Assembly (NCBI GenBank): GCA_004369085.1
Contig: ML210188.1
Location: 1-64,000, forward strand
Direction of reading: 5' to 3'
Length of the DNA stretch: 64,000 nt
Source of the DNA: Coprinopsis marcescibilis
Taxonomy: Eukaryota; Basidiomycota; Agaricomycetes; Agaricales; Psathyrellaceae
Below the pieces are notes generated by a model, which was not told where the DNA came from, searched no databases, and saw only the letters and a list, made by a program, of their open reading frames with translations. The translations under genes and the position numbers were made by a program. Of the stretch, positions 34,015-57,283 are shown piece by piece (position 1 is the stretch's first letter; each line of letters starts with the position of its first letter).

Positions 34015-34569
34015 ATGAAGCTCTTCAGTATTGCACTACTCGGATCTCTTGTCATTGGCTCCTTGGCTGCCTCGAGCATCGAGACTCCAGAAATTGAAAA
34101 GTAAATAGCTCCTTTTGCTATGCTCCACACCTCGACCGAGAACTGACGCCCTTTGATTTCCTCAGGCGTGATCTTTCAACCGTCATCGAGGACCAAGAGA
34201 CTCGTGAAGTCCAATTTGAGGATTCGGACCTCTTCGAGAGAGAAGACATGGAACTGATCGAACGAGAGCCATTCTTCCTCAAAGCCCTTAAGATCGGGTG
34301 AGCACCTACCTTTTTAATCAAGATATTATTCATTGAAGCTTTACAACAGGTTCAGAGCTGGAAAGATGATTGCCAATCACATCCGAAATCGTAAGAGGAA
34401 ACGAGACCTCGAGGACGTCGACCCTGAAGAAATCTTCAGTCGCATGATTGAAGAGCATTTTTCAGAACTAATGACTCGTGACCTCGACGAGTACGACCTG
34501 GACGCACGATTTGACTTTGACGACATGGAGGAGGAGAACTTCACGCGTGACTATGATGAGTTGGATTGA
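34015..34569 (+). CDS. Small secreted dibasic-site precursor with cationic core
   Basis: Predicted 145 residues in three exons: 34015-34100, 34166-34297 and 34350-34569; phases close. A hydrophobic signal peptide of about 18 residues (MKLFSIALLGSLVIGSLAA) leads to a Lys-Arg site (EIEKRDLS). An acidic segment follows, then a strongly basic, amphipathic core, PFFLKALKIGFRAGKMIANH, that runs into a polybasic site (RNRKRKR). The C-terminal part is very acidic and ends in RDYDELD. The layout of acidic spacer, basic core and acidic tail is typical of precursors that keep a cationic peptide inactive until kexin cleavage. I recognise no family. It shares the Asp-Glu-Leu-Asp ending with the repeat protein at 42.3 kb. 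Confidence 0.78.
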
Positions 34570-41031: not shown

Positions 41032-42252
41032 ATGTATGCAAACCGTTTGTCGTTGCTTTCTTTCTTGCACATACACCCTATACTTCAAAAGTTCTAATCC
41101 AGGTTTAATCTTAATTATTTGGCATAGATTCGCCACCCTGTCACTCGATCGGATCTTCGCAAATAAAGCCTCTGGGATATCACCTCTATCAGAACATTGG
41201 AAGGGCTGCCGCTGTACCGGATTCCTACGACTGTCCTCAAGTATAAAAAAGAAACGGTCTATATGTGAACGCGGCTTTGGGAGCTGGTATCCCGAGGTGA
41301 TTCAAACAGTCGCTGCATCTCAGACCTGACGAGAACGTTAACGTTGTGATGCATTGCCGTTGCTATGATTGTGGAGCCGGAGTTGCGATCACGCACTGCC
41401 CTATGCGGTTACAGGTTTTCATTGAACAAAGATCATGCCATCACAGGTCGGTACTAGGACAACTGACTTAACATAACCTAGCAAAAAGCATCAGACGGTG
41501 TAACTTTGACCGTCAGTGACAAGCTGTGTAGTGCTCTTTCAGCTTGAGTTCCTTAGTCACCAACCGGTTACCTGGCTCCCTTCAGGTTTGAGGACCCAGC
41601 CAAGTAAGCCATAGACAGTTTATCAAAACCTGGCTGTGAAGTTGTTGCTGATGACCGGTGCTGTAGTGCATATGCAGTTATTTCCAGAGACCGTTGGCTG
41701 CTCGGACTGGGCTAACCATCGGCTTGCCTCTTTCCTGGTTTGGAACCTCCTTCAGCTGGCTCTGTATGTATGGATATTATCCTGACTGTTGCTCGTCAAT
41801 GTGAACTGAACACCTTGAATTTCAAAGATGCTCTAGCCAAGCGGAGCATTCGGGTTTGACGGTCACCCCTTGATCTCCTAACGATTCTCGGCCTACCTTT
41901 CAGCTCCTTTCAGGCCGCAACTGGTCGGAAAACTAAGGCGACCGACCTGAATGCATCTTCTCGGGTCACTATGTATCGCGTGGCAGTTACTTATGGTCGG
42001 AATCAGTACGCATGATGCGGCAATGATATGATCCTGAACTCGCATTTGTCAGTCACAGGAGCGACCGGGAGGGGATGTCAGGGGAGGCAGAAACATATAA
42101 AAGGTGGGTGTTGCTCCTCTTTGATTCCTCAGCTGGTCTCACCCCTTCAATCTCATCCTCAGAAACTACTAGCGTTGATCGCACACTCTTCTCTCTCTCC
42201 CTCAAAACTTCAATAACTTCTCATTCACCTCCAATCTCAACACATTCTCAAA
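41032..42252. other. Intergenic region and promoter of repeat protein 1
   Basis: No supported gene in 1.2 kb. The right end holds the core promoter of the repeat protein (a TATA box at 42096) and a C/T-rich leader. Bases 42129-42181 are closely similar to the leader of the paralogue at 56.4 kb (shared cagctggtctcac and gcgttgatcgca words), which marks the transcribed leader as part of the duplicated unit. Confidence 0.55.
42096..42102 (+). promoter_or_regulatory. TATA box of repeat protein 1
   Basis: TATAAAA in the context acatataaaagg lies 157 bases before the ATG at 42253. A leader of roughly 120 pyrimidine-rich bases would follow. A strong TATA box suits a highly or conditionally expressed secreted product. 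Confidence 0.6.
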
Positions 42253-43397
42253 ATGGTTCAAATCTCTACCACCGTTGTTCTCGCTGCCCTCGCCATTGTC
42301 CCTGCCCTGGCAGCCCCCGTCACCATCCCTGCCGATAAAGTCGCGTACGTTTCATCCGTCCCGACTTCAAAATTGGATAAAACTAATGGCCTTGCCTTTC
42401 CAGTCGCGAAACTGAACTCGAAACTCGCGAGCCCAGACGCGGTGCCCGCCGCAGCTGGGGAGGACCATCAAGACCCTCAACTGGCATCTCCACTGGCCTC
42501 GGTCAACTCGTTGGCCAGAAGATCAACGAGCGAGTGAACTCACGCGACATCGAAATCGTCGAGGTCGAAGCACGCGAGCCAAGACGCGGTGCTCGCCGCA
42601 GCTGGGGAGGTCCATCCCGACCCTCAACTGGCATATCCACTGGTCTCGGTCAACTCGTTGGCCAGAAGATCAACGAGCGAGTGAACTCACGCGAAGTCGA
42701 AATCGAAGCTCGCGAGCCCAGACGTGCTCGTGGCGGACGACCCCGCACCCCAACAGGGGTTTCTGATTCTGCCGGACGATTTGTCGGTGGACTGCTTGGC
42801 GGTGCCCTGAACCAACGAGACGTCGAGGACATCGAGACCCGCGAACCCAGGCGAGGGGCCCGTGGCGGACGATCCCGCACCCCCACTGGTGTCTCCGACT
42901 CTGCTGGGCGATTCGTCGGTGGACTGCTCGGCGGTGCCCTGAACCAACGTGACGTCGAAGACATCGAGACCCGCGAACCCAGGCGAGGAGCCCGCGGTGG
43001 ACGATCCCGCACCCCAACAGGGGTTTCTGATTCTGCCGGACGATTCGTCGGTGGGCTGCTCGGCGGTGCCCTGAACCAACGTGACGTCGAGGACATCGAG
43101 AGCCGGGAACCCAGGCGAGGAGCCGGCGGTGGACGATCCCGCACCCCCACTGGTGTCTCCGACTCTGCTGGACGATTCGTCGGTGGACTGCTCGGCGGTG
43201 CTCTGAACCAGCGCGACATCGAAGATATCGAAGCTCGTGCGCCCCGACGTGGAGCCCGTGGCGGACGATCCCGCACCCCAACAGGCGTTTCTGATTCTGC
43301 AGGACGATTTGTCGGTGGACTCCTCGGCGGTGCTTTGAACCAACGTGAATTCGAGGAAATTTTGAATGAAGTCCGAGAGTTCGATGAGCTCGATTAA
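42253..43397 (+). CDS. Secreted tandem-repeat precursor with dibasic sites (repeat protein 1)
   Basis: Predicted 361 residues in two exons: 42253-42344 and 42404-43397. The signal peptide MVQISTTVVLAALAIVPALA is followed by a short pro-segment and then seven repeats with Arg-Arg sites. The first two are type A (about 49 residues, core STGISTGLGQLVGQKINERV). The next five are type B (44 residues, 132 nt, core SDSAGRFVGGLLGGALNQRD). Each unit carries an acidic spacer (VEDIETREPRR). The end is REFEEILNEVREFDELD. The regular Arg-Arg sites after EP predict kexin cleavage into near-identical peptides with a glycine-rich hydrophobic core. In Ustilago the Rep1 precursor has a comparable layout; function here is unknown. 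The intron interrupts the Ala codon before the first Arg, as in the paralogue at 56.4 kb. High GC and long antisense open frames come from codon bias. Confidence 0.85.
42426..42719 (+). repeat. Two type A repeats (147-bp period) in repeat protein 1
   Basis: Two copies of a 49-codon unit, offset by 147 bases (the word cgcgagcc at 42426 and at 42573). They are nearly identical at DNA level over the part encoding GARRSWGG and the LGQLVGQKINERVNSR segment, which implies a recent duplication or gene conversion. Confidence 0.85.
42722..43352 (+). repeat. Five type B repeats (132-bp period) in repeat protein 1
   Basis: Five in-frame copies of a 132-base unit (44 codons). For example, ggtgccctgaaccaacg recurs at 42801 and 42933. 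Copies differ mainly at synonymous sites and in alternate spelling of the TPTGVSDSAG segment (two alternating DNA versions), which suggests that the array expanded by duplicating a pair of units. Confidence 0.9.
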
Positions 43398-43655
43398 ACA
43401 TGGGACCACGAGTATATACAATCTACTACAATATTACTAAACGTAGTACTTAACCTGCCTTTCTAAAGCAGCTCATACGCCCTCAAAAGCATTAGCACTA
43501 GCATTATGAATATCAAACAACTTTCATGACATTTTCAGTCTTCAGAGGGGTGAAGCTAAATCTGATAGATGTTAAAGGTACAAATACAGGTGCGTTAAAG
43601 ACTACTAGTAAAAATCATTAGTATCATCTTAGAAGATGACTCGTAACAGGCGTGA

Positions 43656-46298
43656 TTATTTTTCGAGAACGGGCTGTACAGCGACATCATGCCCGTCGCT
43701 CTTGTCATCTTTGATCTTGGAGCCGACCGACCCATCGGCACTAGTCCTCGAAGCCGCAATCTCACCCTTCCCTGGAATATAGTCGTAATTTGACAAGTCA
43801 ATCTCCTCAAACTTATCCGACATTCCAGGAACAGGGAAGATCTTGTTGAGGGTGAAGTAGATGAGTGCAGACACACCAAACCCGGTGAAGAAGGACATTT
43901 GGTAGACTCGGGTGGCAGCAATGGGGACTGACTGGCCGGCTACAAGCAGGGGATTGTTAGTACAGCGACATATTCTAGCACCATGAAGACGAAGCACGTA
44001 CTTGCGCCTGCGAATCCAACGACGTTGATCAAGATACCAGAGACGTATGCTGCATAAGCCCTATCGAGAGATGTAAGCGCCTCGCTTGTCTCCCAGATAT
44101 AAGCGCATACCTGAAATTGACGCCGTATGTGTAGAAGTACCAGCCGTCTTTGCTGGCGGAATAGAGATCGGCGACGCGATAATGGCCTCGTCGGACGACG
44201 AAGTACTCGGTTATCTGATAATCATCGAGCTCAGCATCTAACGTACTTCTTCAAATGTCTGAAGGAACACGCACCATGACTCCGGCGATAGAGCTAAGGA
44301 AGACGGAGTAGGCCGACAGATACGAAGTGAAGCTGTTGGAGCTCTTGAGAAGGTTCCAGGGCATCATGCACAAGCCAACGACTGCTGCAATATAGCCACC
44401 TCGTCGGATGTTCTGTGATACACATCGCATGAGCCTATGGCGCAAAAAAGGATGGCGAGATATATTAACTCACGATGAAGCGGGGGAAAAGTGCAGTCAA
44501 GTCACATCCAGCACTGATCGAGTTAGCGGAAATGTTGGTTCTGTTGATGCCATTCAGCGGAAAGTTCCACAAAAATGAAGTCGAGATGAAACATACCCAA
44601 GCTGAATTGGTGGACACAAGTAAGGAAAGTCAAGCAAGAATGTTCAGATGGATGTTGTTGAAAGATGCGAAAGAACGCTACCTGCGCGATGATGAACGAG
44701 AATGCAATGTACCAAACCTACAACATACAACATGTCAGCTGTCAGCCAATGTCCGGAGAACGAAGCAAAAATGGAAGCACGTACACCAAATCGGGTAGCC
44801 GGTGATGGGCTACCGTCCAAGAATCGTCCGAGGAGCTCAATGGGAGACCAGATAGGCTCGCCATAGATAGTCTCTGATGAGGAGGAGACGATGATACCGA
44901 CGAAGCTGACCAACGAGAAGCCCAATGGTACTGAAAACGCCTGAGGCCAGACGGCTGCTGACGGAGTCTTGGCACGAGAAGCAAAGTCAGGCGCATTACT
45001 GTTGCAAACAAAGAAGTAATAGTCATAAATAAAACTGTTGATAGTAACGGTGTGGTCTGAACTGACGTGACGAGAGTGGCCATGTTGCTGATGCAAGACA
45101 TAAGACTGGTGACCATGTGCCATCCAAGCTCTGAACCGTGTACTTTGGCGGGCTGCGCAATGATAGGGCCAACTCCCTTAGCCTTGACAATGGCCCAGAC
45201 GAAGAATACAATTCCGGCAATAGGCGTCACGATTGACTTCACAGTAAACAGGTGACGGCTTAGTATCGCAAAATGGTGTCAGAAAGGATGATAAAACACG
45301 GAGAAAGTGCTGGAACACATACATTTGGTGAATGGGGAACCAGATTGCTGGAAGTGAAATAAGCCAGAAGAGGAAGAAACACATGAAGTCAAGTGTGTTC
45401 GTGCCAGAAGACTCGGGCATGCCGTTGGCTGTCGTACATGGTCATCAGCATTCAAACTCGCCGCACAGTACCCAGACAGCCAGAGCACATTGAATAGAGT
45501 GAAACGTACGGATATTGGCCACGCTAGGCCACATTGCCCTTAGCATGACTTTCATACATTCGCCACCGATCCACGCTTGCACACCGTACCATACACTACA
45601 TTCCACAGAGAATAATAGAACGGGCGAAGTTGATGAAGACAATTGATCATGAGCGCCAGGGATTGTGATGGAGGGTAGAAATAGGAAGGAACGTACCATG
45701 CCATGGCACCCCGATTAAACGTGCACCATAGACTTCCATATATACCGAAACTCGTGCGCGCCACCACTGGGAAGGTGATATGGAAGATAGCACCGGGACG
45801 AGCGTTGAGAACAATGAATGGGGCGACGAAGCCATACCCTATCCACACGCATAACCAGGCTTGCCACCACGACAAGCCTAATTGCACCATCGACGAAACG
45901 ATCATCCATCTGTATGTGTTTTGAGGGATGCGAGATCGGAGGGCGGCGAATAGAAGATATTGTTAACGCCGTCGAATGCGGTGCTTTTCGACAAAGTACC
46001 TACGTGCTGACATTGAAGCAATCTGCAATCCAGCTAAGAAGTTCCGTGTATCATAGTTAGCCGGTAATGTGATGGTGTGTGAAGAGAAGGGTGCGCACAA
46101 TGTGACAAAATTGATTCCCCGCCATGTTCGATTCTCAGGCGGTACAGGCGTCAGGTCATCGTTCTGCAAAGATAGTGAGGTTGGTTCGATAGACAGTGGA
46201 GTACACAGATATGCGTACAGTCAGGAATATCTGACTATAAGTCAACCCTGGTGGGTGGGCACCTCCAAAGTCTTGAGGAACTTGCCAAATGCACCCAT
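43656..46298 (-). CDS. NCS1 family transporter (uracil / allantoin / nucleobase permease type)
   Basis: Plasma-membrane symporter of 544 residues in 15 exons. In reading order they are 46298-46263, 46163-46099, 46033-46004, 45909-45697, 45595-45510, 45428-45323, 45258-45067, 44998-44785, 44717-44682, 44601-44597, 44540-44474, 44412-44275, 44214-44111, 44060-44002 and 43939-43656; all phases close. Family words are [52 protein letters not shown] and [16 protein letters not shown], with about 12 membrane helices. NCS1 proteins of the Fur type import uracil, allantoin, uric acid or related compounds with protons; the substrate cannot be read from the sequence. Exon 10 is only 5 nt (cttgg) and is required to complete QLGTN. 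The first intron donor (46262) is the least certain boundary. Confidence 0.93.
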
Positions 46299-49297
46299 CT
46301 TCTCCTATAGTTGTTGCGTGATCTTCTAATGTTCACACTGTACCCGGACGGTGGTGTTCAGAGGCCAGGAAAGGGAGGAAGGGACTAGCTGGTTGGTAAC
46401 TAGTGAAAGGTACGAAAAGAAGACGACAAAAGACAACGCTCCACCAAAGGTTGGGGTGCTTCTTCCCTGAAAGGTGAAGGTCGGAAGGTGGTGCGAGCGA
46501 CGAAGCGATGAACTGCCTCTGTCAACCTTCACATTGGAGCTTCGCACTCATATATAAGATATCCACCGTGTGATATCATCCAAGGCTGGAATGCTAGATA
46601 CGAGTCGCTACAAAGTTCTCCCTTCCACTTTTGCAAACGTCGCGTAAGTGGAACCAGAGATAAGAGTTGTCTCCTATGATAGGATGATGGCAACGTCGAG
46701 ATAACGGGGGTTATCGACCACTTGATAGCGGCTCCCAGCAATGCCACCGAGCATCAGAAGCTATCTGTTACTGGGCCTCTTCGAAGAGACTTCTGAAGTA
46801 TGCCAATGGTTGTACCAACGTTCCCAAGTGAGATGGATTGACCTGTTCCTTCACTTTCCCTACTAGATGGGATAAAACTTTATCTAATTATGTCAAATGA
46901 CCTCGTCACACATTCAGTTCATAAGTATGCACGCTGACAGGACCAGGAAATTACGAGCCTGTGCCAAAAGTGGCTAGCACTTGCCGTTGTCTAAACAGGC
47001 ACGAAGAAGCAAAGCGACATTTCCCCGCGGCTTGGCAAGAGAGATAGGCGCCCAATGCCCGGCCCCTATCGGCCGATATCGCCAACTCTTTCAAGACTCT
47101 CGTATCAAGCAAGATCGTTCTGTGATGCTTGCACATATCATCAAACATGCAGCTTATAGTATGGCCTGCGAAAGGTAAACAGCATCTATTGCCGGAAATT
47201 TCTCCGCCTCGCTTCCGCAGCAGATAGTAGCTGGAGCGGTTGGGTTTTCCAAGCAGCCTGTCGCGATGCTATCTTTCACTTGAAATTCTCAGAAAAGTGC
47301 CAAGTAAACTGATAGCTATCTTTGTCTCTCAAGGCTGGGTCTCACAGATTATATGGATTCACTGTCGCTATTGTACTCTATTATACCTCCTTGTCCGAAC
47401 CTGAATCCAGCACCTCTAGTCTCGCGTGCCTGTGCGACTGGCCTACATCATACCAGTGCAGACCAGTGTCTACCCTTGCCGCTCGTCGAGGTCAAATTGC
47501 GAAAGGAAGCAAAACTACTACGGGACCCGGTCCAGTCCGGTCTCTGTTCTTGGGCCTGAAGCCAAGATACTTAATGCTTAGTGCATGAATACTGAGTGTT
47601 TCTTTTGTCCAGGCTAGCATGGTCCGTGCACACCGCTGCCCAGAAATCCGCCGCCATTCCAACGTCAATCCGAGTCGACGTCTGCACACGACATCTTAGA
47701 ACACCAAAGCATTGTTTGCTAACAGTCCGCACATCGGAAGAAGCGATCACTTGTTGTCGAGTTGACGCCTACCCGTGTACCCCTCATCCAACGAGCCACA
47801 GACCGGTACGTCACTGTGTATGTATTACCAGCAAGAAATAAGGCATCACTCAGGGTCCAATAGAAAGCGATCACCGCTTCTCAACCTTCCAGTTCTTTCT
47901 TTCTCGATTCCAGCTGATGGAACTTGGAACGATGCGCGCGCGCCTGCAACGCGCCCTCCACGCTTCATTGCCACCACAGCATGAATGATGCACAGTATCA
48001 GATGATGTACGAGGCCTATGCATGGGTGATCGAGCGCGGAGTAGTCCTTGCCGTAACTCGAAGCGACCCTTGTGATCTCAACTATTATTCCAAACTTTCT
48101 CCAACTCCTGCGCCGGTTGATCATACCGTTGGAGTTAAAATGTACGTGTTAAAACGAAAATATCCGAAACGGCGAGCACAAACGTTTGATGTTTGCCGAT
48201 ACATTTGTATCAGGACACCCGGCGATGTATGAGGACTGAGGGGCGCGCTCAAGCGTGTCGCGCAAGAAGATCCAATGGGGATCATTGCGACAATCCATGA
48301 TCCCTAACTCACCCTTGCTATGTACAACCACTGCCACAGTCCAGTCCATCAAACGCTCCTCGAGGGATCAAAACACAAATTCAAATTCATTCAAATCAGC
48401 TTGGATGAATGCTTGTCTGTCTCAAGTTTATACAGCATCTAAGTAATGTGTACGTGGTGACACGTGCGTTGCGCGATGGTCCAATCAACGATGCAAGTAT
48501 TTACGAACAGTCCTACATGTAAAGGAGCGAGAATCCCTGTGGACGCCAGTAGAAGGTATGTGTAGATGTAGGTAGAATGGTAAATGAGTAAATGAGCCAT
48601 GCAAATGCAAATAAATCTGAATGAAAGATGAATGAGATAGTAATAAAGATGCGAGATGAATGTAAGTAGAAGACGGTCAATGAGAAGGACGGATCAGAAG
48701 AAGGAAACCTAGTAAAGAGAAACGCAAAATGAAGGCAAGGAAAGCCGAACTAGAAGAACCAGAAACTGAACGATGCAATGGCCCGACTCGATAAAATGCG
48801 ATGCGATACGATGTAGTATGTGCCAAGAGTTCGATGCTGAATGTGAAGGGTCCATAGATGCAAAGGAGAAATATGCGGAAAGCTTGATGACCGAGAAGCA
48901 CACAAACAACGGCCGTGGAGCACGAGGCACGCGTCAGGCGTTGAGAAAAGGAATGAAAAGGCAAAAAGGTAACGCGGAACCGAGGGGGAAGTGACAACAG
49001 AGACCAAGTAAATTAAAGAACACGACGAGCGGATGGATAGCAATGCGACGGATGAAAGAGTCGAATGGGAATGCTTGGCCAAGCGGACGAGCACGAGAAC
49101 CTGGTGGCTGGAAAGCGTTGATTGGGTTAGACGATGATGGGGCGAAATGCAGATGTGATGTCGTTGAGAATGCGTGTGCGGCGTGGAGATATATGTACAT
49201 TGCGTCTTCATGTTGCTCATGTTCTTCTGATCGAGCGTTGGGGTATAACGGGACTCATTCGTTATGAGGCATAGCCAGCTGACGCAGAAGCGACGGA
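46299..49297. other. Long intergenic region (3 kb), no gene recognised
   Basis: It begins with the promoter of the NCS1 gene, read leftwards. The rest holds many short open stretches on both strands (for example 47322-47588, 47924-48232 and 48750-49220), none with a domain or a consistent spliced model. The part near 48560-48760 is A/G-rich with short degenerate repeats (gaatg, gatgaatg, aaatgag). The right end is downstream of the KEN-box gene. Confidence 0.45.
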
Positions 49298-50256
49298 CTA
49301 GGGTGGCGTTGCGGTGTCCAAAATAAACGGAGGTGGAGACCCTGCACGGGAGCCAGAGACGAGGTCCCTAAAGCGCTGACCGGAGGGCGACGGCGAGGTG
49401 AAAGTGAACGAAGAATAGATCTTCTTGCGCTCGGGAGTGGAGAAGACATACGAAGTCTGATTCTCCTCCTCAGCGAAGCGCTCCAGGGAAGACGCCACGA
49501 GAGAACTGGCTTGTTTAGGGGAGAAATAATCGCGAATCTCAGGTTCAACTGAGGCCTCCTACAGAAAAGGTTATATTGCACATTAGCACCGTTTGATATC
49601 GGTCATGAGAGTCGCGATGAACGTCATACCTTGATCATTTGGAAAGGACCCTTGGTGTTTTCGCCATTTCGCGAGCAAGAGGAGGATTCCGGTACTACAT
49701 AAGCATCGGACACGTCGGCTAAAGGTTTGACGGTGAGCTCGTAGCATCGAGAATCAATTGCCGCTTGGTTAGACTCCTGAGCCTGGGATCGGTTGTCGGC
49801 TTCATTTCCCTTCTCCTCTTCCACCTTGGGCAACGGCGAAGCCCGACGAGAAGGCGAGTTCCGTTTGGGCTTTCTGGTGGATGGGACAGTTTTACTGTCC
49901 TTCGCCTTGATCGCGGCAGGTTTGGCTTTTAAGGAAGAAGTCTTGCGCTTCTTGGCTTCAGGTATTTCGGCTTTCGACTTTTTGCTGGACGTGGCCACGT
50001 GCTCCTTGGCCGCAAGCACGGTGAGGGTCTTGCGCTTCTTTTCGGCGGCGGTACCCTGAGTTGTCCGTTCTCCCGTAACAGGGTTGAAGTTTTCCTTGTC
50101 AAGGATAACCCTAGCCTCAACCGTTGAATTTAGGTTGGTCCGTGAACTTGATCGTGCTACCAGGACGCCACTGGGGGCACGGGACGACTTCAACCCAGAG
50201 CGTGTTGGGTTGCTCAAAGGAGTATCCTGAAAGACTGTAAAGCTGCGAGTAGCCAT
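49298..50256 (-). CDS. Basic, disordered protein with KEN box (possible APC/C substrate)
   Basis: Predicted 295 residues in two exons: 50256-49630 and 49558-49298. It is low complexity and rich in Lys, Ser, Arg and Glu. A KEN box lies at residues 54-56 (ILDKENFNPVTGERT), and RxxL words occur nearby (RSGL, RTNL). Several basic clusters resemble nuclear localisation signals (EKKRKT, AKKRKTSS). The C-terminal exon carries YFSPKQASSLVASSLERFAE and several Ser-Pro/Thr-Pro sites (FTSPSPSG, FSTPERKK), candidates for CDK phosphorylation. Together these suggest a nuclear protein degraded by the anaphase-promoting complex, but no conserved domain is recognised. A securin-like or DNA-bound role is speculation. 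Confidence 0.7.
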
Positions 50257-52181
50257 GCTGTTTGCTGTGCTGTGCTGAAATATGTGAGGTAGTAGAATGT
50301 TGGTTGACGTCGGACACGAGGCAACTGAAATTTGAATGATTCAAGCAAAACTCGGTGGAAACGAAGGACGAGGATAATGAAGGAAGACGGTAGGCGCTTA
50401 TTGAGGTTTCGCTCACCGGCGGTGGGTGGTGCACGACGCAGCTGAGCCTTGAGGACAGCGAGGAAACTTGGAGGAGACAGTCAAGAAAACAAACAGCGAT
50501 CACATCCACCGGCTTAAACGGGCGGATCACATGATCCCGGAAACAACATTCGCCGCGAACCGCGTAACTGTCACGTGTGCGTTTGTCTTGTCTCGTGTTT
50601 CCATCAAAAGTACAAACCTCGTGGTGTTCCTCCCGACACAACACCGCCTTGTTCCCTCCTTGTCCCCAAACCCCGTGCCCCTTTTCGATATCTGCAACGC
50701 ATTTTGCGCCTTGTTATCCTCGTTGTCCTTTTCTCTGACAGTTTTATCATTCATCTAATGTCTGTGCTATCATGTTCGTGGCCGACGGCTTATTCGGCAG
50801 CCACCTGTGTCCTCGACCTGGGTCCTACTCCATGCCATGGGTTTATGAAACTTACAAGCCCGCTGTTCGTTGCATCATACATGGTAAATTCACTATCTGT
50901 GTCTGACCCGATGACACAATCTAGACCCCCTGGATGTGACGGATTGCTGGTTTTGTGTCCAATATTGATGACTTCGAGGGGTGGATCTTTGATCACCTTA
51001 TTCACCGGTTCATCGATTCATACCTACCTTGCTGGATCATTATGACGCCAATAGGATGGTAGCCTTTGACGGTCCAACTGCGTCTCGGTTTCTTTGACAT
51101 TCCATTTAATACCGTACTCAGTCCTTAGCGCAGGGACCTTTTGCGGAGCTTAAGGTTTGCACCCTCGAATCGATTGGCTTGTTTCTTTCCGCATTTTCTC
51201 TCGAACGTTCACCTGGTTTGGTTTGAGAATGCACAATGTGATCATGGCAACCATTTCCTTCTCATTTTGGCTTTCTTTGGGATAGAAATGGATGCAATCC
51301 AGCTGCGTCTCACAACTGTTGCGTGGCTCATATGATCGAGAGAAGGACTTCAAATTTGGGAATTTTGACTGAGTCGATCACCTACTTTTCCAGAAGGGAC
51401 CAAGCGTCTGCGCCTCTTGTTCCTCCGGATATGTCTATAGTAGTTTTTTGTTTGGTTCCATTATCTTCTGACCGCGTAACGTGAGCAATGCTCCGTTATC
51501 TGGCCGTCCCTTCAGTAGCGCGGTGTGAAACGCAATCTAATGGTATACGAGCAAGGCTCATTGCTGATGGCAACTCGGTCCAGCTTCTGTGACAACAACG
51601 GTGAGCAGTTTTCAGACTCTCTCAAAGGTTCTCGTTCATTTACGATCTCTGCCACGGGCTTACAGACCTTTGAGTACGTAGAGCTAAGATCGATGGAATG
51701 GAGTGCCCTGATTAGCTTCATTTTCAGGACGTCCGCGCTCAGAGCGGTATTGGAGTGCCACATGGCCTGGGATGTTGGGTTTTCAATACTGGCGCTTGCT
51801 AACCGATTCCATCCCTACATCATATTCGAGACATCTAAATATCCAGTCTGCACGATTCCTACTTTCTTCGCCAAACGCCATCATCGACGAGTCCGACTTC
51901 GCTCCTCCAAAAAGCAGCGGCTTACCCAAGACCGGATCAAACGTGCGGACTTGCCAGTGTGAGTAAGGCATTTTGATACACATTCCTGCCTCATGTTCTA
52001 CACGCACCTTGGGGTGTGTCGATCACGAGGCGTGCAGCCCAAGGGTGGGGATTCCATGTCATATATAATGCCTGTCCCAAGTTCCTGTTTTTTCCACCTT
52101 CGAAGTCCTGGTTTGCACTGGTGCTAACTCCTCTCCCTTCTGCACTTCGAACGCATCCCTTTAGTACGCTCTCCCTCATCC
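50257..52181. other. Divergent intergenic region, KEN-box gene / protein kinase gene
   Basis: 1.9 kb between genes read away from each other. Candidate coding stretches at 50575-51045 (+), 51525-51962 (+) and 51512-52007 (-) overlap each other and cannot be spliced into a product with a known motif. The minus-strand stretch at 51783-52007 has some protein-like composition but lacks a workable continuation. The region before 52182 is C/T-rich (ctctcccttctgc...), a probable transcription start. Confidence 0.4.
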
Positions 52182-54501
52182 ATGGCTTCGAAGATCCCTC
52201 AACCCTCCTCCGCCGTCCACCCGCCCATTGGGACTCTCATCGATGGAGATTCTCTCGAACTCGTTGAAGTTCTCGGCGTTGGCGGATATGGCGTCGTCTA
52301 CCGTGCAGTCGACGCCCGCTACCCCACGGGTCCGAAATCATACGCCGTGAAGTGCCTGGTCACCTCTGGTCATCAATCAGCGCGCCAACGACAGGTTCAC
52401 ATCCGCGAAATTGCGCTGCACCAACTTGCTTCGGCCCACCCTGGTGTCGTCACTCTCCACCGAGTCGTGGAACACTACAACCACACCTACATTATTATGG
52501 ATTACGCCTCGGACCACGACCTGTTTACTCAGATTCTTCACAATTGCCGCTATCTTGGCAAGGACGACCTCATTAAGGACGTCTTCCTCCAATTGCTTGA
52601 CGCAGTGGAATATTGCCACTCGCTCGGTATTTATCATCGGGACCTCAAGCCCGAGAACATCCTTTGCTTTGACGATGGCCTCCGCGTCGCCATCACAGAC
52701 TTCGGTCTTGCTACCACTGACAAGATCAGTGACGAATTCCGCACAGGTAGCGTCTACCACATGAGCCCAGGTACTTAATTTATACCTCCTGCTTCTCTCA
52801 TCGTACTGACTGAGCTTTCTAGAATGCCAAGGCGGAGCCTTCGCCCCAGGCGGCAAATACTCTCCGATGTTTAACGACATCTGGTCCCTCGGCATCATCT
52901 TGCTCAATCTCGCGACCGGTCGCAACCCATGGAAGTCTGCGACTCCCGACGATCCTACCTTCCAAGCGTACCTCCGCGATCCCTACGGATTCCTCCCCAC
53001 CGTTCTTCCCATTTCCTCCGAGCTCAACGACATTCTAGTGCAGATGCTCGACGTTGACTGGCGTCAACGCATGAAGCTCCATGAGATCCGTTATGCCATC
53101 GAAGAGCTCAGCAGCTTCTACTCTGACGGTGCTATCTTCGAGGGTAGCATGGCTCGATGCCCTTGGGAGGCTGGCATGGATATCGACGACAGCGAATCCT
53201 CCGAAGACGCCCCAGAGGTGTCCTCTTCTCCTCCTGTTTCCCCTGTCTCCCCGGTGGAGGAACCACGACTCACTTCTCGCTGGAGCAAGGACTCTACTTC
53301 CGATATCGTGTTCGCCCCCCGCTCTGCTGCCGGCGAGTCTGCGTATGGCGTTCCCTGGCCCGAATACTCATCCTGTGGCGCTACATGGGCCTACGAGTCC
53401 CCTGTCTCCTCTCTTTCCAGCGATGACGACGATCACTTTCGCATGGACACGTTTGACCGCCCAGACACACCGTCTGAGGCGTCAACGCAGTCGCCTTCAC
53501 CTTCGCTTCCTGCCACCCCCAACGACTTCGAAGTCACCTTCGCCGCTCAACAAGGCAAGCCACAACCCCGCTTGACCCTTGATACCGATATCCCTAAGCT
53601 CCGAATCTACCGAGCCGACACCCGCTCCAACTCCCTTTCCGAAGACACTGACATGATGCACACCGCAATCGAGTACGATCCCTACGCCTCGCTCTTCTTC
53701 CTCGGTACTCCCCTCTCTGCCAAGCTCATGGTTCCCGACTCCGCTGTGACCGCTATCGGAGAGGACAAGGAAATGACATCACCATCTGTCTGGCGGACGT
53801 CAGTCGTCATGTCCTCACCCTCGTTCTACTCTTCATCCGACAGCTCCTCATCCGACGACGTTGTCTTCTCCCGTTCTGGGACGCCTTCTCCCGAACTCTG
53901 GCCTACCGCCAACCGTTCCTCTCAGGTACAGTCTCAAGCTTCACCGCAATGTCAGCCCTCTTCTCCCGTCTATGGCATGATGACCGACTCTCCCTCAAGG
54001 CCCCCTCTCTTCTCCAACCGACGCTCCAAGCTCTTCAGCCACAAACCCACCACCCCCGTCGTCCTCGCCGCACACGCACCCCCTTCCCCCGCCACGCCCA
54101 CAGCCGCCAACCGCTTCTCAATCAAGCTCTTCCCTCGCCCGCCGCCCACACCAACAGCAGCAGCGCCTGCACCGGCTTCAGCAAGTCCGTCAGTCCGTCT
54201 TCCTTCACGTGGGCGCGCTCGCCACGCTAAACCTTATCCAACCTTTGGCCGCCGTAAAGCGGGTGTGGCGAAAGCTGGGCAGGGTGACTTTGGGGGAAAG
54301 GACCAAGTGGTGGGGGCTCCAGCCTCGTCGACAAGCTCATCAGCATCGTCCGGGAGCTGCTCGTCCGAGTCCTCCACTGTCTCCTGTGGAAGCGATGGTG
54401 TAGTGGAGCGGGCGGAGCGGAAAAAGGTCGTGGGGAGGAGGAATGCGAAGATGCACTGGTTCTCGGGCAAGTTCTTCACGAGTGCTGGTGTGGCTGCATG
54501 A
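52182..54501 (+). CDS. Serine/threonine protein kinase, Ran1/Pat1 (SKS1/VHS1) type
   Basis: Predicted 755 residues in two exons: 52182-52770 and 52823-54501. The kinase domain spans about residues 25-315. It has the glycine loop GVGGYG (32-37), the ATP-anchoring Lys57 in YAVKCL, HRDLKPEN from 152, DFG at 173-175, and the activation segment GSVYHMSPECQGG. The insert GAFAPGGKYSPMFNDIWSLGIIL is typical of the fungal Ran1 group, which controls the switch from growth to meiosis or nutrient responses. The long C-terminal tail is Ser/Pro/Thr-rich and disordered (for example SSPPVSPVSPVEEP and SSDSSSSDDVVFSRSGTPSP), probably a regulatory region with many phosphosites. All catalytic residues are intact. 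Confidence 0.93.
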
Positions 54502-56431
54502 GTCGGGTATAGGGTCGCTTTTGCCTTGCTTATCCTGGTTCCTCTTCACTCTTCGCGCCTTTTGACGACTTTGTTCTTCGTTAAAAATGTCATCACATTC
54601 GTTCTTTAGAGGTTATTGGCCTTTCTTCTTTGGTATCCTCTCCTTGCGCATTTTTCCTCCTTTCTTTTGGGGAACGACAGCATCCACGCATACTTTATGA
54701 AGCGCATAGCATACGATATCAGCATTAACATTAGCATCAGCATCGCATAAAACCAAAGCATCACATTCATTCATCATATGTATCTTATTTGCATCTTCTG
54801 CAACCTGTATGGCATAAATCATAGGCATAGGCAAACCATGTACACCAAATCATTCTTCCGTTCTTTTTCTTCAAGGAGACAAGTTGTAGTATATAAACCT
54901 TAACTTTAGCGTTATCGTACATCCAAAAACACAATACATAAAGATTGTTTCCAAGGAATCACTGCCAATTAGTTTGAGCTCTTGGGAAAAGCTTGACTTT
55001 TCAAAGCCACGGTGCGAGGCTTACTCGCTTGAGTCGGAGTACGATCAGACCAAGCGTGACCTCGAGGTTCGCCACTTGACAACTCGCCCGGTTGGCAATT
55101 CCTGCATCAGATTCACTGACAGCCAGAATAATTCAGCAATTCCACGCCTGTCGGTATAAAGCTATTCAACGCCTGAGAGATCCTGAACAAAGGGCCAGAG
55201 GGACTTCGGCCGGGGAGAGTCCCTGTCCTGTCCGAGCGCATGAGCCTTGAGGCCGGGCAGTGCAAGAACCACTGTAAGCACATCACCGTCGTCGAGTCAT
55301 CGGATCTCATCCTAGTACATCATGTCGCCCAAGACGCGTATCAGGTCCAAATTTAACAGGCCATTGCTTATCAAAACCACCAGCTGACCGGTGAAATGCT
55401 GTTAGACGCTCAAATGTATCAGCGTGTCAGCAACCCGGGTTGGATCATGGATGATAGATTCGATAAGGGGCAACAGACCAGCAGAGCGTTTCAATGACCA
55501 AAGTAGCGGTAAGCTACATTTATGGCATTGTCAGGTAGTAGTGAGGGTTTGGCGGTAATTCGATGGGATACCGTTGAGCGGCAAACTGCTCATTCGCCGG
55601 CTAAGCTGATATAGGCTGGCTCAGTAGGTACTATTTGGAAGTCTTGGAAGCAGCCTATGCATCTCAAGTCCTCGATGGAGTCCTGCTCAGAATCTTGGAG
55701 TTGTCCTAGGGGAGAAAGTAGAGAGCGCCGAACCTACGTTTTCATTAAATCAAAGATGTTCTATCTAACACACCACATCAACGACTTCCGGGCTTGTGGG
55801 CATTAGAATGGTGAGCTATTAAATTAAAACCAGGCTGCTCTATCGAACATATGTACATAATTCCGGGCTTGGGGGCACCGAGGCGGGGAACTCTTCCCAG
55901 ATAGCTACTAAGCATTTGGAGGTCTTGCAAGCAGCCTATGCACGTGGAGTTCTCAGGCTGCTCTGAATCTTGGAGTTGTCCTAGGGAGAAAGTGGATATA
56001 GCCCCGAACGTACGTTTTCATTAAATCAAGCTGTTCTATCTAACACACCACACCACCGTCTTCCGGGGTTTGTGGGCATTAGCAAGGTGAGCTATTAAAT
56101 TAAGACCAGACTCCTCTATCGAACCTATGTACATAATTCCGGGCTTGGGGGGCACCGAAACGGTGAACTCTTCCAGGGGCCTAAACTGCCAGTCCATTCA
56201 CAATGGGCATCACGATCCAGCGCAAAGTCGGAAACGTCGGAAACTCGGAAGGAATGCAAGGGTACAAAACATGGGCCCGTTAGCGTGCAGAATTCTTCAG
56301 CTGGTCTCACTCCTCCAACCTCACCTCCACAAACTACAAGTTGCGTTGATCGCAACAAGTACTCTATCGCCTCCTTAACCAACCCTCAAACAACTTTCAA
56401 ACTTTTTATAAACCCCTTACCGCAATACAAA
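54502..56431. other. Intergenic region upstream of repeat protein 2
   Basis: No gene is supported in 1.9 kb. The first 300 bases are T-rich and probably the kinase 3' end. From about 55627 to 56180 a roughly 280-base segment is present twice in tandem (listed separately). The last 150 bases carry the leader shared with repeat protein 1 (cttcagctggtctcac at 56296, gcgttgatcgca at 56343). Confidence 0.55.
55627..56180. repeat. Tandem duplication of a ~280-bp non-coding unit
   Basis: Two adjacent copies are offset by about 281 bases. The anchor cagcctatgca is at 55651 and again at 55932. Further shared words are cttggagttgtcctaggg, gttttcattaaatcaa, gttctatctaacacaccac, gtgggcattag, gagctattaaatta and gtacataattccgggcttgg. 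The copies differ by point changes and small indels, so the duplication is not very recent. It lies about 250-800 bases upstream of the repeat protein 2 ATG, where it could duplicate upstream regulatory sites. Confidence 0.85.
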
Positions 56432-57283
56432 ATGGTCCAAATCTCCACCACCCTCGTTCTCGGCGCCCTCGCCATCGCACCAACCTTGGCCGCCCCTATC
56501 ACCTTCCCCTCCAACAAAGTCGCGTACGTTTGACATTAATCCCATTCACATAGTACTATTAGCACGATAGACAACTAATTACTCGTTATGCACGACAGCC
56601 GCGACACAGAGCTTGAAACCCGTGCGCCCAGAGGCCGGGGAGCAAGACAACCCACCGGCGTTTCCTCCGGCCTTGGCCAACTGCTCGGACAGCAAGCCAC
56701 CCAACAACTCAACGCTCGCATCTCAGAGGACACAGTTGAGGTCGAAGCTCGCGAGCCCAGACGCGCCCGTGGAGGCTCAGGAAGACAGCCCACCGGTATC
56801 TCCTCCGGTATTGGCCAGATACTCGGCCAACAGCTGAATGCGCGTGAATTGGAGAGTGCGGATGTCGAAACGCGCGAACCAAGGCGCGGGGGTAGGTCTA
56901 GTGGTGCTTCTGGATCGGCTGGTCGATTTGTCGGTGGAGTCCTCAACGGCATAAACCAACGAGCCTTCGAGGAGGAAGTTGAACTCCAAGTCCGCCAGCC
57001 AAGACGCGGCGGGAGGTCCAGTGGTGCTTCCAACTCGGCAGGCCGCTTCGTCGGTGGAGTCCTCAACGGCCTAAACCAACGAGAATTCGAGGAGGAAGTT
57101 GAACTCCAAGTCCGCCAGCCAGGACGCTCCGGCAGGTCCAGCGGTGCAAGGTCCAACTCGGCAGGCCGCTTCGTCGGTGGAGTCCTCAACCAACGCGAAT
57201 TCGAGGAGATGGAATTCGAAGCCCGGGAATTCGAAGAGTACATGAATGAGGCGAGGGAATTTGATATTGAGGAGCTTGACTAG
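56432..57283 (+). CDS. Secreted tandem-repeat precursor with dibasic sites (repeat protein 2)
   Basis: Paralogue of the gene at 42253, with 258 residues in two exons: 56432-56523 and 56599-57283. Exon 1 is exactly 92 nt in both genes, and the intron splits the same Ala codon. The signal peptide MVQISTTLVLGALAIAPTLA differs from that of protein 1 at only four positions. The first two repeats are type A-like (PTGVSSGLGQLLGQQ and PTGISSGIGQILGQQLNARE). The last three are type B-like (SNSAGRFVGGVLNGLNQREF). The acidic spacers end in REPRR, RQPRR or RQPGR, so the last predicted kexin site is degraded from Arg-Arg to Gly-Arg. The C-terminus EAREFDIEELD parallels that of protein 1. Function is unknown; a kexin-processed surface or signalling peptide is the leading idea. 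Confidence 0.83.
56893..57190 (+). repeat. Type B-like repeats (120-bp period) in repeat protein 2
   Basis: Two and a half copies of a 40-codon unit. The word ctcaacggc followed by taaaccaacgag is at 56941 and again at 57061, an offset of 120 bases. The third copy carries a one-residue insertion (an extra Arg in GARSNSAG) and lacks the NG pair before NQR. Confidence 0.8.

Follow-up and report, generated by a model that had tools for sequence, protein, structure and literature searches.

The DNA analysed here, referred to as the window, is the stretch C43:1-64000 of the genome of the agaric Coprinopsis marcescibilis (64,000 nucleotides), and it carries on its forward strand two genes, designated gene 1 and gene 2, whose predicted products are secreted precursors built from repeated units of two types, A and B. 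An earlier note, made from the letters of the sequence, had described the pair as paralogues with the layout of kexin-processed peptide precursors. In this work, both genes were compared with the whole genome (36.3 Mb, 448 contigs), with protein and domain databases, and with the literature.

Table 1. Features of the two precursor genes and of a likely family member nearby (positions in the window).
Feature	Position	Strand	Details
Likely family member	34015..34569	+	exons 34015-34100, 34166-34297, and 34350 or 34356 to 34569; script model
Leader motif GCGTTGATCGC	42172..42182	+	81 nt before gene 1 ATG
Gene 1, exon 1	42253..42344	+	92 nt; putative signal peptide MVQISTTVVLAALAIVPALAAP and beginning of the pro-region; hydrophobic stretch by inspection
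Gene 1, intron	42345..42403	+	phase 2, 59 nt
Gene 1, exon 2	42404..43397	+	A x2, B x5, tail ..EVREFDELD-stop
Gene 1, B-unit array	42729..43348	+	132-nt period (264-nt also); one 24-residue core in 5/5 units
Leader motif GCGTTGATCGC	56343..56353	+	89 nt before gene 2 ATG
Gene 2, exon 1	56432..56523	+	92 nt; putative signal peptide
Gene 2, intron	56524..56598	+	phase 2, 75 nt
Gene 2, exon 2	56599..57283	+	A x2, B x3, tail ..AREFDIEELD-stop

Two paralogous genes and their repeat units

Genes 1 and 2 share the length of exon 1 and the phase of the intron that follows, and in each of them the second exon holds two A units and then a run of B units, of which gene 1 has five and gene 2 three, all as the earlier note had read them. 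The spliced products comprise 361 and 258 residues, respectively, and histidine is absent from both. By inspection, their N-termini (MVQIS..LAAP) are hydrophobic and align with those of four of the database relatives described below (P0002-P0005), and the gene leaders upstream of the ATGs align over 63 columns at 81% identity (E 2.6e-12). The genes are, as had been proposed, a paralogous pair with a putative signal peptide in common, and their likeness reaches into the leader. The gene 2 product is a 100% match to FA15DRAFT_737720 (P0001) of C. marcescibilis, a record marked as partial that carries 41 extra N-terminal residues relative to our model. No identical record for gene 1 was found among the 7993 candidates scored, so that an annotated model may be absent there.

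The 24-residue B core of gene 1, TPTGVSDSAGRFVGGLLGGALNQR, is identical at the protein level in 5/5 copies, although each of the 10 pairs differs at 4-12 codons, all of them synonymous; likewise, the single pair of gene 1 A units (35 codons) differs at six synonymous codons and at no nonsynonymous codon. Since the 20 inter-core codons of the B array vary, with 2-4 nonsynonymous codons in 5/6 pairs, the core stands out as the guarded part. These counts support purifying selection on the A as well as the B units of gene 1, in agreement with the earlier note, and the B core, identical five times over under synonymous drift, provides an exact 24-residue target stretch. The two B units of gene 2 that are complete (40 codons) show eight synonymous and four nonsynonymous codon differences. 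Arrays detected by Tandem Repeats Finder (TRF) have periods of 147 nt (2.0 copies), 132 nt (4.7 copies, with a 264-nt period too) and 120 nt (2.6 copies); as B unit 1 resembles unit 3 and unit 2 resembles unit 4, the 264-nt period points to growth of the gene 1 B array by doubling of a two-unit block.

Relatives and a shared C-terminal tail

The products of genes 1 and 2 end in EFDELD and FDIEELD, and five relatives beyond the pair (P0002-P0006, among the matches listed) open with MVQ or MVH and share the ELD C-terminus; P0006 was reached only by a profile that included P0002-P0005. A third paralogue lies on another contig (C201:14.7-15.8 kb). The shared ELD tail, and the wider family that it marks, had been missed by the earlier note. 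What that note observed holds in the main; the family behind the pair is the more interesting fact.

These relatives bear on how the two unit types are to be understood. Against each of three A cores, the B core of gene 1 reaches z ~6, with 0/2000 shuffles as high, and the three gene 2 B cores are more weakly related to A (z 1.3 to 4.4, scores equalled by 3 to 246 of 2000 shuffles). Among the units of P0003 and P0006, some are equidistant from both types (z to A/z to B of 8.1/8.4, 7.9/7.2 and 8.7/8.5), others lie nearer to B (6.6/9.7, 6.4/11.8 and 6.5/10.4), and 3/4 units of P0002 lie nearer to A. The motif G[RQNG][FLI][VLA]G recurs in 20/20 distinct A/B-type units, as does a GxxxG step, extended to GxxxGxxxG in 9/20; the units for these counts were hand-picked, with identical copies entered once and three Gly/Arg-rich C201 segments omitted. 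Most simply, A and B would be sub-types of one ancestral unit, and not the two distinct classes that the earlier note had seen in them. In a tree of the 20 cores (27 columns), where 3/17 inner branches only have good support, the A units of gene 1 and gene 2 cluster with three P0002 units at 96/97, which supports a split of A and B older than the gene duplication, as had been argued; all compared units of P0003 (n=4) and P0006 (n=2) fall on the B side. The order of A before B, taken to be fixed, gives way in the relatives: P0002 reads A,A,B,A, and the C201 paralogue carries two B-like units, three Gly/Arg-rich segments and a further B-like unit, with A units absent. Judged from these proteins, the order is a property of two paralogues and no general rule.

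The tail was also searched for across the genome. A DNA pattern for [DE]E[LF]D followed by TRR occurs at 68 places, compared with 42 for the reversed pattern. An acidic, Arg-bounded spacer lies within the last 80 residues at 20/43 places of [DE]E-Leu-D-stop and in 0/19 frames that terminate in the scrambled sequence DLE[DE]-stop, a control made up mostly of short chance frames (2/19 reach 60 residues), which tests chance and not other genes. Among frames of at least 60 residues, the spacer is found in 20/25 that end in [DE]ELD-stop genome-wide, against 27/511 of the frames in the window, family genes included. Duplicates with identical last 60 bases had been removed (L051 and L068 among the targets, L095 among 20 control stretches). 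Inspected by eye, two of the 20 spacer-positive ELD frames look like chance (L038, L046), and five frames missed by the spacer rule look like members (L040, L063, L064, L074, L075). Variant tails also exist, namely ..VDQLD in the C201 paralogue and ..IDDLD in a gene on C213.

Likely members tend to lie together: three at C193:45-51 kb, two on C57 separated by 2 kb, two on C219 separated by 8 kb, and two on C201. The frames with the ELD tail are grouped accordingly in the stretches L067 (C193:43500-52500, n=3) and L056 (C57:154800-158800, n=2, within a few kb). The contig of the window itself has likely family genes at 34.0, 42.3, 56.4 and about 67.5 kb. The first of these, located 8 kb before gene 1 and with two possible acceptors for its third exon, encodes a putative signal peptide, a single cationic segment (FFLKALKIG...NRKRKR) accompanied by acidic spacers, and the tail ..DYDELD-stop. 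About 10 kb past gene 2, the stretch L023 (C43:63001-73000) holds a likely member at about 4.5-5.57 kb from its start; the protein begins MVRASTIVVAALAIVPVLALP.., contains Lys-rich and His-rich segments, and ends in ILDELD. The C213 gene (L118, C213:36200-38000) has two near-identical 42-residue cationic segments (RFNLR.A.GRVRGLAKKAGG..) between acidic spacers and the tail IDDLD.

The first intron is in phase 2 in all ten gene models judged clear, which are those of genes 1 and 2, the 34-kb gene of the window, two genes on C201, one each on C16, C116 and C168, and two on C219. The gene-model script had returned 23 rows (with a C201 gene counted twice), of which 11 gave no model, one was implausible and three were ambiguous or single-exon; the genes in these rows are supported by their last exon. 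The ELD-tailed set as a whole is likely to be of common descent.

Predicted processing, alternatives and genomic setting

The earlier note had acidic spacers and Arg-Arg sites separating the units, which holds for gene 1, with Arg-Arg at 7/7 of the R-x-P unit boundaries, and in part for gene 2 (3/5), whose two boundaries without Arg-Arg read APRGR and QPGR. X-Pro is found at every unit boundary of the pair (n=7 in gene 1, n=5 in gene 2), including those two. An acidic stretch closed by Arg (..E-[ATV]-R) is present in 8/8 compared proteins. A dibasic site follows the spacer Arg within five residues in 7/8 cases in gene 1, 3/7 in gene 2, 6/9 in the C201 paralogue, 4/7 in P0002, 5/7 in P0003, 0/5 in P0004, 3/9 in P0005 and 6/11 in P0006; X-Pro or X-Ala follows it in 7/8 cases in gene 1, 5/7 in gene 2, 3/9 in C201, 2/7 in P0002, 4/5 in P0004 and 6/9 in P0005. 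These counts skip the first 26 residues and any Arg not following A, T, V, S or L, include the tail Arg, and contain a few overlapping Arg that were scored double (two in P0002, one in P0006); the first spacer of P0004, EAREPRR, is not among them. As the proteins read, Arg-Arg is not the constant junction, and the acidic stretch with a single Arg is the steadier one.

Surveys of Kex2-processed repeat proteins (KEPs) look for repeats between dibasic sites, and we re-implemented such a test by pairwise alignment of dibasic-cut fragments, without the original authors' scripts. Gene 1 yields eight fragments of at least eight residues, five of them each at least 70% alike to four others, and is recognised as repetitive, as is the C201 paralogue; gene 2 yields four fragments (65, 41, 40 and 91 residues), none similar to two others, and escapes. 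The genome encodes a P_proprotein (kexin) domain at three places and one DPPIV_N gene. Removal of X-Pro or X-Ala after a cut is an activity of Ste13-type enzymes.

With moderate confidence, we regard genes 1 and 2 as probable members of a larger Agaricomycete family of Kex2-type secreted multi-peptide precursors, with an architecture consisting of a putative signal peptide, a phase-2 intron right behind it, cores of positive charge, acidic Arg-closed stretches and an ELD C-terminus. The secreted, kexin-type layout put forward in the earlier note is thereby supported at the level of sequence, with cutting as a prediction. Kexin in the Golgi would cut after Arg, at Arg-Arg where present and at single Arg elsewhere; an exposed X-Pro may then be trimmed by a Ste13-like dipeptidyl aminopeptidase, and the acidic spacers, which before cutting probably hold the cationic cores inert and soluble, would be discarded. 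Gene 1 would release two A and five B peptides of about 31-32 residues, and gene 2 two A and three B peptides, with the ELD tail probably serving as a shared sorting or maturation signal. The weakest step of the proposal is that the peptides probably act extracellularly, on surfaces or membranes of other organisms, as suggested by the Gly-rich GxxxG cores of A and B and by the cationic amphipathic helices that form the cores of several relatives; such action of the A/B peptides is a hypothesis taken from those relatives.

Charge and amphipathicity were examined along these proteins. When gene 1 is cut in silico at the spacer Arg, the charge is +3 to +4 for the A and B peptides, -2 to -3 for the spacers and -4 for the tail piece, and charges segregate along the chain more strongly than in shuffles in 12/13 proteins or last-exon frames (at most 23/2000 as high). 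Out of 16 hand-picked segments, five reach a helical amphipathicity matched by at most 0.025 of shuffles and 11 do not; the five are both C82 segments (0.000 and 0.002), segment 1 of P0005 (0.001), the last segment of the gene at C43:68 kb (0.025) and segment 1 of C213 (15/2000), and the two 42-residue C213 segments are among the others (105 and 296 of 2000). The released peptides could alternatively be self-assembling peptides of surfaces or aerial hyphae, with Gly-rich GxxxG cores stacking on hyphal walls, rather than signals or antimicrobials. They would then work like the repellents of Ustilago Rep1, a kexin-cut repeat precursor giving many similar peptides, to which the earlier note had likened the layout of the pair. 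A GxxxG step in every compared unit, doubled in nine of the 20, and the many identical copies per precursor, which would fit a bulk product, speak for such a role; we nevertheless consider it rather unlikely, given that likely relatives whose tail and spacers are of this kind (C213, C82, C43:68 kb) have highly charged cores, which a stacking surface peptide would not.

The pair was also examined for a predicted fold and for known families. A full-length AlphaFold model has a mean pLDDT (predicted local distance difference test) of 45.5 and no confident whole-chain fold; as its alignment comprised six sequences, this low confidence is weak evidence of disorder. In Pfam-A, the best match of gene 1 is Glug at 19.7 bits, under the cut-off of 20.5, gene 2 has no match, and none of P0001-P0006 has one over cut-off; a precomputed database column gives PF09849 for P0003 and PF17724 for P0006, which rescored at 35.9 against 38 and 21.7 against 32.4 bits, respectively. 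A structural or enzymatic family was thus rejected, with no match over cut-off in Pfam, NCBIfam or PDB sequences. It is possible but quite improbable, in our judgement, that the proteins stay uncut and act whole, as disordered secreted polyampholytes (protectants or matrix binders) in which the Arg sites are incidental. The lack of a confident fold, the two gene 2 boundaries without Arg-Arg and the few counted spacer Arg followed by a dibasic site in P0004 and P0005 would agree with this, but it is difficult to see why a bulk disordered chain would keep its cores identical under synonymous divergence amid varying inter-core stretches, and the Arg-closed acidic stretches in all eight compared proteins also speak against it.

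Several points weigh against the multi-peptide precursor family that we favour. P0005, from Agrocybe pediades, is weak by score (E 0.05) and was placed by architecture; cores differ freely across the ELD-tailed set, and the tail and spacers that unite it are short and acidic; the scrambled-tail control is limited as stated above, and so is the alignment behind the AlphaFold model. Gene 1 is itself the one protein of 13 without significant charge segregation (304/2000 shuffles as high), and the amphipathicity of four A/B cores lacks significance (equalled by 0.06 to 0.47 of shuffles), for which reason the membrane reading leans on relatives. X-Pro or X-Ala follows the spacer Arg in 0/7 cases in P0003 and 0/11 in P0006. 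Furthermore, in the published work on KEPs, six knock-outs in C. cinerea are described as without phenotype, and the KEP peptides tested there had no antibacterial activity (Vogt, 2022; PMC9769878).

With regard to the genomic setting, the leader motif GCGTTGATCGC occurs at 25 genome places, compared with six for a reversed control, and precedes four family genes already known (gene 1, gene 2, and those on C166 and C201). Twenty of the other 21 places were examined (C340 was left out), giving one new member, on C213, and 19 places without a family-like start by inspection. The motif lies 49-89 nt upstream of five family ATGs and revealed the C213 member without a protein search. By a script rule, a secretory-like frame is found at 6/20 motif places and in 81/400 random windows, no clear excess, and a role of the motif as family regulator was set aside as at best partial.

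Frames neighbouring the pair match ribosomal S5, a purine/cytosine permease, a protein kinase and a C2 domain, with 2/8 frames unmatched, and these eight frames suggest no pathway context for it. Pieces of the permease gene (PF02133) lie just after gene 1, at 44742-45962 on the reverse strand, and a direct repeat is found upstream of gene 2 at 55633-56151, with copies 275-281 nt apart and four blocks of 80-92% identity. Precursors of ribosomal cyclic peptides (dikaritin/ustiloxin type), whose cores are cyclised by UstYa-like enzymes, share the gross layout of a signal peptide and repeated cores between Kex2 sites, as outlined by Umemura (2020; PMC7329392). That the pair belongs with them is hardly credible, as the cores here are about 30 residues long and have neither Tyr nor Cys, and, of at least eight UstYa matches in the genome, those listed are found on C59, C72 and C280 and are absent from C43 and C201; a cyclic-peptide cluster at the locus was rejected, with no UstYa/DUF3328 match on C43 among the matches listed.

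Comparison with known secreted precursors

The general kind of precursor is already described. KEPs, as defined in the main texts of three studies (PMC6339444, PMC7329392, PMC9769878), are fungal secreted precursors with a signal peptide, which is putative in the pair, and, like the pair, with tandem units split by basic sites, and 79/1193 of them carry two or three motif types (Le Marquer, 2019; PMC6339444). Two peptide types per precursor are thus not new, contrary to the earlier note, and its statement that no described family was recognised stands for domain families, none of which matched over cut-off in Pfam, and not for the kind of precursor. KEP-derived peptides have been detected in related mushrooms, and KEPs in Pichia are reported to undergo Arg-Arg cutting, X-Ala/X-Pro removal and apparent single-Arg cutting (Vogt, 2022; PMC9769878). 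The present genes differ from KEPs in that gene 2, with three Arg-Arg sites, fails the repeat test, that the steadier junction is an acidic stretch with a single Arg, and that the ELD tail and acidic spacers lie outside the KEP definitions of those main texts, although a relative may have been listed earlier in supplementary material. Since KEP surveys seek repeats between dibasic sites, their tally of secreted peptides in mushrooms may be too low, and ELD-tailed genes in which repeats are few may likewise escape such surveys. The main text of Umemura (2020; PMC7329392) mentions neither Coprinopsis marcescibilis nor DELD, and in the open-access literature on DELD in secreted proteins of Agaricomycetes and Basidiomycota and on KEX2 mushroom peptides, no ELD-tailed precursor family was described among the matches listed.

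Candida albicans Ece1, the candidalysin precursor, also releases several non-identical peptides through kexin, one of them with a virulence function (PMC6339444); likened to it by description only, the pair differs in having near-identical copies of two sub-types as cores, and acidic spacers.

The closest parallel to the tail is found in Serendipita (Piriformospora) indica, where 25-29 effector candidates end in DELD, with scattered RSIDELD-like ends described elsewhere (PMC3192844, PMC4620400, PMC3708536, PMC13039781); two secreted L. bicolor proteins with DELD ends are also mentioned, and tail and centre are there treated as separate entities (PMC3192844). Like the predicted products of the pair, the S. 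indica proteins are secreted and lack Cys, and their constant C-terminus ends in DELD; set against the pair by description only, they are 101-135 residues long, His/Ala-rich and end in RSIDELD (PMC3192844), and the pair has neither that length, nor a His/Ala-rich centre, nor more of that end than [DE]ELD. As a tentative proposal, which we hold to be somewhat less probable than even, C. marcescibilis would have about 20 or more genes of a large undescribed Agaricomycete family in which diverse cationic peptides lie between anionic Arg-bounded spacers and share the ELD tail as a signal for sorting or maturation. The S. indica DELD, an 'effector motif', would be that same signal and thus a secretory trait of older date in peptide precursors; the A/B pair would be a two-sub-type member under strong selection on each released peptide. 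A tail common to precursors of a saprotroph and to effector candidates of a root endophyte would give a testable common signal.

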